Assembly (NCBI GenBank): GCA_020845775.1
Contig: JADLFC010000076.1
Coordinates: 1 to 36,142 of the forward strand
DNA from: Deltaproteobacteria bacterium
GTDB lineage: Bacteria; Bdellovibrionota_C; UBA2361; SZUA-149; JADLFC01
Length of the DNA: 36,142 nt
Reading direction: 5' to 3'
Of the stretch, positions 856 to 6,918 are shown one piece after another. A model generated the notes under the pieces. It was given only the letters and a program-made list of their open reading frames with translations, was not told the DNA's origin and did not search any database. Position 1 is the first letter of the stretch; each line of letters starts with the position of its first letter. The position numbers were made by a program, and so were the translations under genes.

Positions 856-1860
856 CTATCCCAAGGAAGTTTCCCTTTGCATAGGCAGTCCAAGATACCG
901 CAGGCTAATTGCCAGCAAAGAGCGAATGACTTGAGCTAAAAATGCCGCCTGATGCGCTATAATGACCCCATGCTCGTTAAGGCAAGTTTGTCGCCTCAGA
1001 AACGATGGGTGGCGAAAAAAAGTATAAAAATCCCTTATCATTTCAATTAATTGCCTAACTACTAACCAGGGCTTACCCTCCTCCGCAGCAAGAAAAAATT
1101 TATGGCGGAATTCGAGAATTTTAATAATAACTGGCATAAACATTTCTTCGGTAGCTATTCCCCACTGCGGCACTTCAATAATAGGATATTTAGACAGATA
1201 ACTACTAACATCGCTAACAAACTTGTCAAAATACCAGGGAATGTTTTGGCGCCCGCAAAGGCCAAGCAAATAAGGTTTCACCTCTAGTTCCCGGTCAGCA
1301 AGCAGGGCAAGTGCCATTAGCTTGTCCCTAAAAGAAACAAACTCCTGACCAAGAAGTTTATGTGCAAACAAGGCAACGTCATCGCTCTTTTCCTCACGGC
1401 AACGACTAAAAATATCACTCCAGTTAATATTACTACCTTCTCTTGGCCCACCTTCACTATTACATTCGCTAACTACAAAGCTCCCCTGCGAAAAGAGAAC
1501 ATCTACGCCTATTTTCCACAAACGCGCAAAATAGCTATCAACAAAGATATCGCTAGGCGTTGAATTGATGTGCCCACCTCCGCCCAGAGAAAACGAAAAA
1601 AAATCCCTGGACTCTAACTGCCCCCTCCCTCGAAGATTTTCGAGAATGAGATTTGCAATCTCTAAAGGCCCAAGATGGCCGCCATCTGTCGCATTTAACT
1701 TGACAATATGAGCTAAATCAAAAGCTACCCTAGAAGTTAGCATAGCTCCGTACTTAGGTTCACAACTCTCTACCTTAACCGCTCGCTCTAACTCTACCTC
1801 AGAAAGTAAAAAAAGCTCGCGCACTGCATCTCTAATTACAAAGTGGCATTCAATGTGCAT
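856..1860 (-). CDS. ArgRS-like protein lacking the catalytic core (N-terminal domain plus DALR domain)
   Basis: This 334-residue protein resembles the two ends of arginyl-tRNA synthetase joined without the aminoacylation core. Residues about 5-120 follow the N-terminal tRNA-binding domain: a YGAMLTSRVAFDLA segment, then PLEIANLILENL, then a GGGHIN segment where ArgRS has AGPGFIN. Residues about 240-330 follow the DALR anticodon-binding domain (IIKILEFRHKF, AAEEGKPWL, FYTFFRHPSFL, and a last helix ending ISLRYLGL). The roughly 115 residues between them show no HIGH-type motif or Rossmann core. Such a protein could bind tRNA but not charge it. It starts at ATG 1860, overlapping the CCA-enzyme gene by 11 bases, which implies coupled translation and a shared tRNA theme. 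The domain reading is by eye. A decayed argS is possible, but the frame is intact. The function is unknown. Confidence 0.75.
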   Translation of the reverse strand: MHIECHFVIRDAVRELFLLSEVELERAVKVESCEPKYGAMLTSRVAFDLAHIVKLNATDGGHLGPLEIANLILENLRGRGQLESRDFFSFSLGGGGHINSTPSDIFVDSYFARLWKIGVDVLFSQGSFVVSECNSEGGPREGSNINWSDIFSRCREEKSDDVALFAHKLLGQEFVSFRDKLMALALLADRELEVKPYLLGLCGRQNIPWYFDKFVSDVSSYLSKYPIIEVPQWGIATEEMFMPVIIKILEFRHKFFLAAEEGKPWLVVRQLIEMIRDFYTFFRHPSFLRRQTCLNEHGVIIAHQAAFLAQVIRSLLAISLRYLGLPMQRETSLG

Positions 1861-2857
1861 TTGATAACGCAGTCCTTAAAACTATTAGGCGCTTTATCTG
1901 GGAATTTGAAAGCTTAAATTTTTTTAGGCTTTCAAAAAAATCCTCCTCGCTAACGAGCTTATATAAGAATACAAGCAGAAGCTCCCATCGCACATAGGGC
2001 TTATTACTACTAATCGCTAGATAACTATCGAATACACCGCTACTAGCTTCCATGATACTTAGCAAAACATCATCCGAGACACTCCAAAGCGGCTCAATTT
2101 GCGAGAGCACTTTATGTCGCTCAAACACAATTAATATTTCAGCCGGAAATTTTTCGCTTAAAACCTTTCGCATCTCATCAAACAATCTCTCCCAAGGAAC
2201 TCTTCTCAAAAATTCGCCTTCTATCGCTCTACAAAAGAGTTCCTCAGTGGTTGACTCAAAAGACAATCCAAAACGCGCTACAAGCCTAAGACCCCTTAAA
2301 ATCCGAACTGGATCATCGACAAAACTTTCGGCGTGCAATACTCGTAGCAAGCCCTCCTTTAAATCCTCTCGCCCATTAAAAGAATCGTAAACTTGTCCAA
2401 AATCCTCCGGCGAAAGGCCGACTGCCATGGCATTAATACTAAAATCGCGCCGAGCTAAGTCAGCATCCAGATCGGCCCACTCGACTATTGGCGCCGCACC
2501 CGAAAGGGGATAAGTTTCTTTCCGCGCAGAGGCGAATTCAAGCAAGTCAACTTGAGGAAAAATCTCCTGCTCAAATTTTAGTTTGGCAGTCTTATACTTT
2601 TTAAAAGTCACAAAACTACTTGGTGGTTCAATTCCGTGGAAAAAAACAGGCCAATTATCTATCAACCGTGAGCAGTATTCTATGGCATCGCCCTCAATTA
2701 ATATGTCGACGTCAGCGCAGTAGTGCTCCAGCAATAAATCCCTTGGCATGCCACCCACTATAAAAGCGCGGCTTCTACTCTCAATGGCTAGCTTGCCAAG
2801 CTGACGCATGAAGGCGATTTCCACGGGAGAGTATATTTGCTCAAATCTACTTAACAC
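1850..2857 (-). CDS. cca: CCA-adding enzyme / tRNA nucleotidyltransferase family protein
   Basis: This is a class II nucleotidyltransferase of the tRNA CCA-adding/poly(A) polymerase family, acting on tRNA 3' ends in the cytoplasm. The nucleotidyltransferase head shows GGMPRD near residue 35 (the usual form is GGxVRD), the metal-binding DVD about residues 49-51, and RRDFSINAMAV near residue 135. DDPVRILRGLRLVARFG marks the neck region, and RRVPWERLFDEMRKVL follows. At 335 residues it lacks a C-terminal HD phosphohydrolase domain, so it is a short form. It starts at GTG 2857, 11 bases inside the end of the amidase gene, and overlaps the next gene by 11 bases. From sequence alone it cannot be told whether it adds CCA, only A or CC, or makes poly(A) tails. 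Confidence 0.88.
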   Translation of the reverse strand: MLSRFEQIYSPVEIAFMRQLGKLAIESRSRAFIVGGMPRDLLLEHYCADVDILIEGDAIEYCSRLIDNWPVFFHGIEPPSSFVTFKKYKTAKLKFEQEIFPQVDLLEFASARKETYPLSGAAPIVEWADLDADLARRDFSINAMAVGLSPEDFGQVYDSFNGREDLKEGLLRVLHAESFVDDPVRILRGLRLVARFGLSFESTTEELFCRAIEGEFLRRVPWERLFDEMRKVLSEKFPAEILIVFERHKVLSQIEPLWSVSDDVLLSIMEASSGVFDSYLAISSNKPYVRWELLLVFLYKLVSEEDFFESLKKFKLSNSQIKRLIVLRTALSNAH

Positions 2858-4109
2858 TTTTGTCTTTAAAGTACGCCTTAATGCCCAAAAAAATCGCCTC
2901 CGCTATTAGCCGCTGATAGGAGCGATCCGCCAATCGCTTTCCCTCCACAGCGTGATCAATAAACGATACTTCGGTAAGCACACATGGCATGTGCGCCCCC
3001 ACGAGGACGTAAAACGGCGCTTTCTTTACTCCCAGATTGTTTACCCCTTCGTAACGCCTAGAAATTCGCCCCACTAAGGAATCCTGCACGCGGTGCGCCA
3101 AAGTTATGGAATCGTCCAACTTGGCGTTTTGAATTAAATCGCTTAAGATAAACTTTAAATCGTCGGCATTGGGATTAAAGCTGCTGTTTTCGCGCTCGGC
3201 AAGTTTAAGGGAGGATTGGTCAGCGGTATTGTCTAAGTAATAAGTCTCTATACCACTTGCACTTTTATTCACACTTGCATTGGCGTGAATAGAGATAAAA
3301 ACGTCCGCTTGCTTATCATTGGCAATTTTCGCCCTATCGGCAAGCGCGAGCTCTTGATCGCGCGCACGCGTAAGCACTGTATCGACGAAAAGCCTCTTCC
3401 TAAGCATCTCATCCAAGTAAATGGCAATATTTAGCACTATGTCCTTCTCGTAATCGCCATCTACTCCAAGCGCACCTAAATCACCCTCTCCACCATGCCC
3501 TGGATCTATTACAACTACTGGCGCTAGTTTCTTTCTGCTCACACTCACTGGTCGCGGAACCGGCACTGCAATACCGGGCAGGCGAGCTTCGCCACGAACT
3601 CTCCTATTCGCCTCCGCCACCATGTCCGAACCTGGATACTTGTCTATTATCTCAAAATAAGCCACCTTGGCCCCGACCTCATCTCTAAAAACATTGCGCC
3701 TCAGATCCCCAAGGCGAAGCAGTGCATCGTCGGCCAAGTAATGCCCCACAAAATCTCTACAAACTATTTCGTAATAAGACACGGCACGAGCACTACTCTC
3801 AGTAGACTTCCTCTCCCGCCCCATGATTTCAAAAATCTGCCCCAACAAAAACAAAGCTTTGGGCGTTTCAACGGTATCAGGATTATCCTGCAAAAAAGAC
3901 TGCAAAGACTTTGCCGCTTCCAGCCACTCGTCTAGCTTTCTCACACGCGTATCTTGTTTTAGCAACTGTTGTGCAGCCCTCCTAGCTTGCTCAAAATCTT
4001 GGCGAGAAACCGCCTCCTCGGCGCAAAAACCCTCCACGCAGGAAAGCAAGAGCGACAAGACAATTATCCCGATTAGGACAAAATTTTTAATGCAATTGCG
4101 CATAGGCAT
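2847..4109 (-). CDS. N-acetylmuramoyl-L-alanine amidase (Amidase_3) with TPR-like N-terminus
   Basis: This exported zinc amidase cleaves the bond between N-acetylmuramic acid and L-alanine in peptidoglycan and is likely used in cell separation. I chose ATG 4109 because an N-terminal hydrophobic signal follows at once; an open frame to GTG 4157 would add 16 unlikely residues. The signal (LIGIIVLSLLLSC) could be a lipobox with the cysteine as anchor, or be cleaved at FCA-EE. A helical TPR-like section covers about residues 35-175. The catalytic domain then shows IDPGHGGEGDLGA (zinc His), a Glu in YEKDIVLNIA, ISIHANAS (zinc His) and the catalytic Glu of LTEVSFIDH. The AmiC-type AMIN domain is absent and replaced by the helical repeats. 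The gene follows mutS by about 70 bases and overlaps cca. Confidence 0.9.
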   Translation of the reverse strand: MPMRNCIKNFVLIGIIVLSLLLSCVEGFCAEEAVSRQDFEQARRAAQQLLKQDTRVRKLDEWLEAAKSLQSFLQDNPDTVETPKALFLLGQIFEIMGRERKSTESSARAVSYYEIVCRDFVGHYLADDALLRLGDLRRNVFRDEVGAKVAYFEIIDKYPGSDMVAEANRRVRGEARLPGIAVPVPRPVSVSRKKLAPVVVIDPGHGGEGDLGALGVDGDYEKDIVLNIAIYLDEMLRKRLFVDTVLTRARDQELALADRAKIANDKQADVFISIHANASVNKSASGIETYYLDNTADQSSLKLAERENSSFNPNADDLKFILSDLIQNAKLDDSITLAHRVQDSLVGRISRRYEGVNNLGVKKAPFYVLVGAHMPCVLTEVSFIDHAVEGKRLADRSYQRLIAEAIFLGIKAYFKDKSVK

Positions 4110-4179
4110 ATAATACACGAAACTGGAGCACTTCCATTCCCACTTCCCAGCATACACACAATTCCGAGCCCAATAGGCG

Positions 4180-6918
4180 CTACTGCGAAAGCTCGTTTTG
4201 TAGCGCCTCGAGCTCCCGTAAAGCCTGAAGAGGTGTCATGGAATTTATATCAAAAGATAGTATGCGCTCAACTACCAATTCATGCTCTGCATTGCTAGAG
4301 GGCACATCCTCACGCGCTGGGGGAACACTGCTATTATCGGCAAATACGGCTATCTGAGAACTCAGCGGCTGATTAAATAGATCGCTAGTCAAAGTCTCAC
4401 AATTCTCAAAAGAACTCATTGCCATCCTCGCGCGCTGCAACAACGGCTGTGGCAAGCCGGCAAGCCGTGCGACTTCCAGACCATAGCTACGATCGGCGGT
4501 TCCATTTTCAATTCTGTGTGTAAAAATTATTTCATCCCCATCTTCAACAATGCCCACAGTTATACAACTTACCCCCTTCTTAGCCTCGGCGAGACTAGTC
4601 AATTGGTGAAAATGCGTCGCAAAAATAGTTTTCGCTCCTATGCAATCGTGCAACCACTCGGCAATAGAAGTAGCAATGGCTAATCCGTCAGCCGTAGCCG
4701 TTCCCCTGCCAATTTCGTCAATTAACACCAAGGATCTTTCTGTAGCCCTCTTTACTATAGTCGTGGCCTCGCGCATCTCCACCATAAAAGTGGAGTCTCC
4801 CCTAGCAATGTCGTCCGCGGCGCCAATTCGCGTAAATATCCTATCTACCAAACTTAGCTCTGCAGATTCCGCCGGAACAAAAGAACCAATTTGGGCTAAA
4901 AGCTGAATTAATCCAACCTGCCTTAAGTACGTAGACTTACCTCCCATATTGGGACCTGTAAGCAGTGCAAAATATTTCCCCTCTCCCTCGCTGTCCAATG
5001 TGCAGTCATTGGGAACAAAATTGTGCGCCCCTATTACCATTTCGATAACGGGATGGCGTCCAGCTTTAATATGCAGCTTGGTTCCCTGAACTATTTTGGG
5101 CCTACAATAATTTCGCCTATGGGCGAGCTCCGCCAAAGCTGCGAACACGTCTAAAAGACTTAAACCGCGACTCGTAGCTTGAATCCTATGCGCTTCGCCA
5201 GCTACATACGACCTAAGTTCGATAAACAGCTCTTTCTCCAATTCGATTTGCCGAGCTTTTGCCGACAAAACCGAAACTTCTAAACTCTTTAACTCATCAG
5301 TTGAAAAGCGCTCCGCATTGGCAAGCGTCTGTTTGCGTTGATAGTGCGAAGGTACTTTACTCAAGTGGGATTTAGTCACCTCAAAAAAATACCCAAACAC
5401 GTTATTGTAGCGAACTTTAAGACCACTTATGCCGGTTCTTATCTTCTCCTCAGCCTCTAACTTTAATAGCCATTGCTTAGCTTCGCCACTTAACTCGCGT
5501 AAGTCGTCGACATTCGAGCTAAAACCTTCGCGAATAATTCCTCCTTCGTTTATCTTATTGCTAGGTTCATCGACTAAGGCACTATTGAGCTTTCGGCAAA
5601 TGTCTTCCAGAGTATCGAAATCTGCTAGCAGCCGTTTAAGCATTTCGCTCGAGCACTCGCCTAAAAAACGGCGAATTTCTGGGAGCTCCGACAACGAGTC
5701 CGCTAGCACGCGCAAGTCTCTAGGCGTTGCACGCATCGTAGTTACTCGCGACATCAGCCTATCTATATCGCGCACCGCCGCAAGCAATTCTCTAAGGCGA
5801 GCACGCGAGCTATCTAATCTAACTAACTCCTCCACAGCTGCCTGCCTACTCTCGATTACATCTAATTCGCAACTGGGAGCCGATAACCACTCCCTAAGCA
5901 AACGAGAGCCCATCGCCGTCTGCGTAAGATCCATTAAATCAATCAAGGAGTTCTTTCGCGTGCCATCTATGCGCGTTTCAAAGAGCTCGAGATTCCTTCT
6001 CGTCGCCGCATCGATAAAAACTACTCCATTTGACTTCTCCACTGTAAACTGAAAAATGCGCGCTAGCGGCCCAAAGGAAACCTCCTCTACGTAGTTTATA
6101 GCAGCAGCAAGGGCCGAACAGGCTTCTTGCGAAAGTCCTCTTGAGTTGTCGCTAGCGGCCCCAACACCTACACTGCTATTTTCCCTAAGCAACATCTCCA
6201 GGCGCCGAGAAATATCCCTCTCGCTAACCACAACAAACGGCCGCATGACTATGTGGCAATTTAGTTCATTCGCTTTTTTGCGGACTTTTCTAAGCCAGTT
6301 CTGGTTTTCTTTGGTGGACACGCCAAAAAGCGTAGAGGGAAGGATTAATTCGCTAGGAGAAACGCGCTCAAGCATTTCGAGCAAATTTTCAAGATTTTCT
6401 ACTTCGCCCACGCGAAGGCTTCCCGTAGAAACATCTACAAAAACCAACGCGCCACTCTCTCTGGCGTTTAAGGCACAGGCCGCAAGATAGTTAAATTTCT
6501 TCTCGTCTAAACCCTCTCCCTCATAGCGAACCCCAGGAGTAATAATGCGAGTTATTTCGCGCAGAACTGGCCCTTTGGCTTTAGCCTCACTAGTTTGCGA
6601 TACGATTACGCAACTAAAACCTTTAGCGAGAAGTTTGGGAATATAAGCATCTATGGCATGCACCGGCACGCCACACATAGGGATAGAATTTTCGCTATTC
6701 TTATTGCGAGAAGTTAGGCGAACATCCAAAGCCGCCGCCGCGACAGTAGCATCCTCGAAAAAAAGCTCGTAAAAATCGCCGACCTGAAGTAGTAACAAAT
6801 GCTCGGGGTAGTCGGCCTTATACCCAAGGTAACAGCGCATCATGGGGGGCAAGTGTTCAGCATTAGACTGAACACTTGCTATTAGCTCGTCTCTTTCTCC
6901 AATAAAGCTATCACTCAA
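4180..6918 (-). CDS. mutS: DNA mismatch repair protein MutS
   Basis: MutS recognises base mismatches and small loops and starts methyl- or nick-directed repair with MutL. The N-terminal mismatch-binding domain contains GDFYELF with the Phe-x-Glu wedge. The ATPase domain has Walker A TGPNMGGKST at about residues 654-663 and Walker B LVLIDEIGRG near residue 731, followed by the conserved FATHFH segment. At 912 residues it is slightly longer than usual. The start is TTG 6918, supported by AGGGAG 10 bases upstream. The first internal ATGs (6843, 6840) lie inside the conserved PMM segment and have no ribosome binding site. Codons about 14-24 contain a perfect 12-base inverted repeat. The gene lies 45 bases after rpsA in the same direction. 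Confidence 0.97.
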   Translation of the reverse strand: MSDSFIGERDELIASVQSNAEHLPPMMRCYLGYKADYPEHLLLLQVGDFYELFFEDATVAAAALDVRLTSRNKNSENSIPMCGVPVHAIDAYIPKLLAKGFSCVIVSQTSEAKAKGPVLREITRIITPGVRYEGEGLDEKKFNYLAACALNARESGALVFVDVSTGSLRVGEVENLENLLEMLERVSPSELILPSTLFGVSTKENQNWLRKVRKKANELNCHIVMRPFVVVSERDISRRLEMLLRENSSVGVGAASDNSRGLSQEACSALAAAINYVEEVSFGPLARIFQFTVEKSNGVVFIDAATRRNLELFETRIDGTRKNSLIDLMDLTQTAMGSRLLREWLSAPSCELDVIESRQAAVEELVRLDSSRARLRELLAAVRDIDRLMSRVTTMRATPRDLRVLADSLSELPEIRRFLGECSSEMLKRLLADFDTLEDICRKLNSALVDEPSNKINEGGIIREGFSSNVDDLRELSGEAKQWLLKLEAEEKIRTGISGLKVRYNNVFGYFFEVTKSHLSKVPSHYQRKQTLANAERFSTDELKSLEVSVLSAKARQIELEKELFIELRSYVAGEAHRIQATSRGLSLLDVFAALAELAHRRNYCRPKIVQGTKLHIKAGRHPVIEMVIGAHNFVPNDCTLDSEGEGKYFALLTGPNMGGKSTYLRQVGLIQLLAQIGSFVPAESAELSLVDRIFTRIGAADDIARGDSTFMVEMREATTIVKRATERSLVLIDEIGRGTATADGLAIATSIAEWLHDCIGAKTIFATHFHQLTSLAEAKKGVSCITVGIVEDGDEIIFTHRIENGTADRSYGLEVARLAGLPQPLLQRARMAMSSFENCETLTSDLFNQPLSSQIAVFADNSSVPPAREDVPSSNAEHELVVERILSFDINSMTPLQALRELEALQNELSQ
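6849..6879. repeat. Perfect inverted repeat inside the start of mutS
   Basis: GCAAGTGTTCAG at 6849-6860 and its exact complement CTGAACACTTGC at 6868-6879 are separated by 7 bases. The palindrome lies in codons about 14-24 of mutS, in the variable part before the conserved mismatch-binding domain. In the mRNA it would form a 12-base-pair hairpin about 40 bases after the start codon. Its outer seven bases match those of the small hairpin at 13648-13667. Whether the two share an origin is not certain. Confidence 0.7.

Follow-up and report, generated by a model that had tools for sequence, protein, structure and literature searches.

A probable displaced arginyl-tRNA synthetase, reduced to the two ends that bind tRNA in its relatives, encoded behind a tRNA nucleotidyltransferase gene in Bdellovibrionota_C

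Introduction

A gene that appears to encode both ends of an arginyl-tRNA synthetase (ArgRS) without the catalytic core between them raises the question of where such a protein came from and what it is kept for. The gene, here called X, lies in a window of 36,142 nucleotides, which is the entire contig C76 of a 2.57 Mb genome (95.8% complete). An earlier note on this DNA had read the ends of the protein as the N-terminal and DALR domains of ArgRS, had found neither HIGH nor KMSK-like motifs in the middle, had counted an 11-base overlap with a CCA-type gene, and had compared the protein with animal DALRD3. In this study those claims were followed through profile searches, gene order in the wider phylum, and comparison with ArgRS from other phyla.

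Results

The X gene and its surroundings

The open reading frame of X is intact and begins with ATG, and the overlap with the upstream tRNA nucleotidyltransferase (NTase) gene has the length given in the earlier note (Table 1). Scanning the window for Rfam families and tRNAs produced no matches. A TadE-like gene (83-571 on the minus strand; PF07811, E 6.1e-8) lies 3' of X, at the position that a SPOR gene occupies in relatives, and the contig ends soon after it.

Table 1. Features of the X locus, in positions of the window
Feature	Position	Strand	Basis
X, core-less and very probably ArgRS-derived protein, 334 aa	856..1860	-	profiles and family alignment
X residues 1-120, ArgRS N-domain (Arg_tRNA_synt_N-like)	1501..1860	-	family profile, profile-profile comparison
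N99 codon of X, aligned with the A20-contacting Asn of bacterial ArgRS	1564-1566	-	residue roles from PMC8975779
X residues 121-190, variable middle in place of the catalytic core, without HIGH or KMSK	1291..1500	-	
X residues 191-334, post-core helix and DALR domain, with a family motif around P285	856..1290	-	
11-bp overlap between the end of the NTase gene and the beginning of X	1850..1860	-	open reading frames; in relatives the two genes adjoin on one strand, slightly overlapping or a short gap apart
A-adding-like tRNA nucleotidyltransferase, 335 aa, translationally coupled to X	1850..2857	-	
N-acetylmuramoyl-L-alanine amidase, operon gene upstream	2847..4157	-	Pfam on homologue L016:4384-5784
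mutS, first gene of the conserved run	4180..6918	-	

The two ends of X are ArgRS domains

Homologues of X were present in 14 of the 15 genomes of the order, 13 of them found by search and the fourteenth, in G003, through gene order (profile E 1.5e-6). They are about 316-368 aa long, and the 13 sequences of the family alignment (A1) are 19-27% identical to the window protein. F47, N99 and E191 are invariant in this alignment, and P208, W209, R252, F278 and P285 nearly so. A search of contigs with the window protein gave no match, and the same search with a homologue gave one named record, L076 (MAG Pseudomonadota bacterium isolate JPNA_metabat.107), whose sequence is the same as that of G001.

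The Pfam search that the earlier note had suggested gave its answer at the level of the family. X alone had a sub-threshold match to DALR_1 (E=0.028) and nothing further in Pfam and NCBIfam, Arg_tRNA_synt_N included, while nine of the 13 family members matched Arg_tRNA_synt_N (best 2.4e-6) and four matched DALR_1. When the order-family profile was compared with all PDB sequences, the seven best matches were all ArgRS, four through the N part (3.5e-6) and three through the C part (0.0085), and the PDB matches of a profile built from X across the class were likewise all ArgRS. Profile-profile comparison of the order family with one type of ArgRS (t1, see below) gave collinear matches for the C part (P=3.2e-10) and the N part (P=1.8e-7). 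Control profiles made from unrelated operon proteins and from reversed ArgRS gave P values of 0.04-0.7, which rules out chance similarity between X and ArgRS. The post-core helix of X, ELE...NIPWY, aligns with ArgRS DFDLE...NPVYYVQYAHAR. With 13 members to draw on, the profile and PDB matches make the proposed identity of both ends firm.

The absence of the class I core was borne out as well. HxGH was found in 0/13 members of the order family, no KMSK-like motif was matched in the window protein, and PF00750, the ArgRS catalytic domain, had no match in X. An AlphaFold model of X, for which the alignment consisted of the window protein and L076 only, had a pLDDT of 38, too low for the model to be usable.

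The earlier note had asked whether the genome carries another argS. A full-length gene of ~580 codons is present on another contig (G000:C36), with N, catalytic and DALR domains all above cut-off, and by homology its product is a working ArgRS. The short form of X was also seen in 13 other genomes of the order, so X is not a local frameshift; this recurrence and the separate argS together rule out an assembly frameshift or a lost argS.

A longer form of X occupies the same place across the phylum

The short NTase paralogue was located in each of 46 genomes sampled from the phylum, and the neighbourhoods were compared. In most of them the next gene after the NTase encodes an X of 394-439 aa, followed by a SPOR-domain membrane protein, PP2C and purH, and the conserved operon reads mutS-amidase-NTase-X-SPOR-PP2C-purH. 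Beyond the order, X was found in a further 19 genomes (a contig end cuts one copy), which brings the phylum total to about 33/46. In family f15 and in G016 the NTase is followed directly by the SPOR gene without X, and in family f11 the NTase is located elsewhere; some contigs end too early for absence of X to be judged. At L135:6600-8519 (G022) a 639-aa open reading frame lies 3' of the NTase, where relatives have X.

In profile comparison it is the C-terminal part that connects the class-wide X with the order family (P 1e-7 to 2.5e-7). N350, P352 and R355 are invariant in the longer form, and an N-x-P-x-x-R-like motif, searched as a loose pattern, was detected in 31/31 X members as against 3/22 and 7/40 ArgRS.

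X resembles an ArgRS type that is not the charging type of the class

Sixty argS neighbourhoods from other phyla served as the ArgRS comparison set, and profile scores separated the enzymes into two types, for which the labels t1 and t2 are those of this analysis. ArgRS of type t1 typically carry [E/D]NP.YYVQYA (30/40). A G[D/N][T/S]G.Y signature marks t2 (10/13), and the same signature is present in 22/22 of the working ArgRS set, drawn from this class and two other genomes. The class-wide X profile aligned with t1 over 390 columns, from the N-domain through the core to the DALR domain (P 3.3e-11; P 2.4e-12 when alignment A3 was used), whereas significance against t2 was limited to the N part. 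Taken individually, 27/31 X members scored higher with t1 than with t2, the charging type of the class. The HIGH segment of the class's ArgRS (SPNIAKPFHVGHLR) aligns with, for example, PDATVPLYARLRL in X; at this former HIGH site both His residues are lost and the next Arg is invariant among the class homologues.

Gene order points the same way. A SPOR gene comes immediately after argS in 11/53 sampled genomes of other phyla, ten of these 11 argS being t1, and X lies directly 5' of that same SPOR gene. The same-strand argS-SPOR pairs are L146, L147, L150, L153, L154, L158, L165, L176, L183, L186 and L196, and a literature search of open-licence papers found no published explanation for the pairing. 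Outside the order the homologues still have a longer, though degenerate, core, so X is better read as a decayed argS than as a joining of two terminal domains, and the argS-SPOR pairs seen in other phyla indicate its source. Profiles, signatures and gene order thus make it very probable that X is an old argS which was displaced and decayed in place, and which was then probably repurposed.

In a number of lineages (G015-G018, G022, G024, G029-G031, G035 and G037) the ArgRS catalytic domain was matched in two pieces within a single frame of 668-728 aa, which suggests an insertion in that domain.

The D-loop pocket is partly kept and X is under selection

The N-domain of bacterial ArgRS grips A20 of the tRNA D-loop, and in E. 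coli F36, Q40, A78 and N84 form the pocket for this base and F82 adds a stacking interaction; the central residue is N84, which corresponds to N79 in T. thermophilus (PMC8975779). In the alignment the equivalent of N84 is N99 of X, kept in 13/13 members; the equivalent of F82 is H97, a position held by His, Tyr or Phe across the order family, and that of A78 is G93, where residues are small throughout. F36 and Q40 are not kept in the X family, and family f13 has Val or Ile in place of the pocket Asn. The kept equivalents N99, H97 and G93 therefore indicate that the pocket partly persists in the window's order. Charge proved uninformative as evidence for RNA binding, as basic residues are not over-represented in X and ArgRS proper is acidic too.

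Nei-Gojobori dN/dS values for five pairs of X genes were 0.18, 0.12, 0.30, 0.24 and 0.13, with dS near saturation, and on these values X is under purifying selection. Taken with the residues that do not vary and the fixed position of the gene, the dN/dS values disfavour a mere pseudogene, and X was probably given a new job.

The NTase is a constant neighbour

The NTase lies directly upstream of X on the same strand in 31/31 loci measured, usually at a distance of no more than a few bases, so the conservation of the cca neighbour that the earlier note had asked about extends across the phylum. Its best NCBIfam match is the A-adding tRNA nucleotidyltransferase NF041569 (6.7e-43); with 335 aa against 880 it covers profile positions 463-764 only, and the score is far below the equivalog cut-off. 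The window genome also encodes PcnB and an HD-type CCA enzyme. Across the phylum the short single-module A-adding-type NTase (in the window and, for example, at L020:8158-9111 on the minus strand) is a third PolyA_pol paralogue.

Distance correlations between X and the NTase gave no NTase-specific signal of co-evolution, NTase length had no visible relation to the presence of X, and in other phyla no NTase gene was found adjacent to argS. An NTase upstream of argS at L150 was rejected as a candidate, being 1.2 kb away and not the best NTase match of that genome.

Discussion

The model proposed here begins with a t1 argS and SPOR pair which, in the ancestor of the phylum, would have sat downstream of mutS-amidase-NTase. 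A second ArgRS of type t2, represented here by G000:C36, would then have taken over charging, after which the old argS would have lost HIGH and KMSK and, in most of the class, shrunk to 394-439 aa. In the window's order it would have shrunk further, to about 316-368 aa, with the gene retained. The product may act as a non-catalytic tRNA binder, probably of tRNA-Arg, whose N-domain would hold the D-loop through the A20 pocket and whose DALR domain would hold the anticodon stem-loop. Some tRNA-binding role, judged from the residues kept, is somewhat favoured, and the joint claim of ArgRS descent with such a role is about evenly balanced. X might further act with the coupled A-adding-like NTase, for instance by holding on to tRNA, or offering it to the enzyme, while the 3' end is matured or repaired. 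The constant same-strand adjacency favours a joint role, though a partnership as such is put forward tentatively. The specific form in which X is a dedicated tRNA-binding subunit of the short A-adding-type NTase, the two proteins completing or checking the tRNA 3' end phylum-wide with tRNA-Arg first, is a rather more speculative proposal. X may also be the tRNA chaperone or CCA-enzyme targeting factor of the earlier note; the unbroken adjacency and the tRNA-contact residue retained in the order speak for such a job, and the distance correlations, the genomes with an NTase but no X and the lack of basic character speak against it.

The same ancestry could also have led to other roles. X may be an independent tRNA-Arg-binding factor, such as a modification guide, chaperone or charging sensor, with the NTase next to it by operon history only. 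The persistence of the NTase without X in several lineages (f15, G016), the distance correlations without NTase-specific co-variation and the precedent of DALRD3 with METTL2 (PMC7237682) agree with this reading, which is nevertheless unlikely on present evidence, as the NTase-X adjacency is unbroken in 31/31 loci while flanking genes vary: f13 has no amidase or mutS upstream, and the window has no SPOR gene. It is a more distant prospect that tRNA binding has been lost altogether and that the fold serves protein-protein contacts or another role, for example as a scaffold of a cell-envelope operon. Here the SPOR and amidase neighbours, the lack of basic character, the loss of the D-loop Asn in f13 and the invariant N-x-P-x-x-R motif, a new feature that most ArgRS lack, would find an explanation; however, throughout the window's order the Asn is retained, as is its partner, an aromatic residue or His, and ArgRS proper is acidic too. 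The ancestry itself leaves very little room for an X put together from an N- and a DALR domain instead of descending from an entire argS. That account draws on the window's order taken alone, where reliable alignment is limited to the two ends, but in the longer forms of the class the alignment continues through the core and takes in the HIGH site, and the ArgRS type preference and the SPOR neighbour indicate an old argS.

As a displaced argS, X can be set beside several known systems. It shares with the SPOR-linked bacterial ArgRS (PF03485, PF00750 and PF05746) the order of N-domain and DALR domain, the NPVYY/NIPWY helix and, in many members, a downstream SPOR gene. It differs from them in having no HIGH or KMSK, a reduced or absent core, an N-x-P-x-x-R motif of its own and a second argS in the genome. 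HisZ and YadB/GluQRS are repurposed aminoacyl-tRNA synthetase paralogues too. In HisZ and GluQRS a catalytic-type domain remains and anticodon-binding parts are gone, and X is the reverse of these, having lost the catalytic part. Like the repurposed paralogues reviewed in PMC9437257, X would be a synthetase which, once duplicated or displaced, was retained for a different task; no ArgRS paralogue is named in the searched passages of that review, and no description of a bacterial core-less ArgRS paralogue was found in a literature search of open-licence papers. Three marks of a pseudo-synthetase, namely synthetase descent with loss of the aminoacylation motifs, a separate synthetase that by homology is functional, and retention under selection, were found for X.

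By analogy, the nearest functional counterpart of X may be DALRD3, which guides METTL2 to tRNA-Arg and in vertebrates is likewise a DALR protein with no recognisable synthetase motif alongside true ArgRS genes (PMC7237682). The comparison drawn in the earlier note thus stands as an analogy but not as common descent as a paralogue, for which no evidence was seen: unlike DALRD3, X has a recognisable ArgRS N-domain, METTL2 is absent, and the conserved X operon contains no methyltransferase.

The series reported here, from the intact argS-SPOR pair of other phyla through a degenerate form of 394-439 aa with a recognisable former HIGH region to the core-less form of 316-368 aa, is a rare set of intermediates after replacement of a synthetase. 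X appears to have discarded the catalyst and kept the tRNA-binding parts, as DALRD3 has in vertebrates, and its fixed place behind the NTase gene names a partner for X that can be tested directly.
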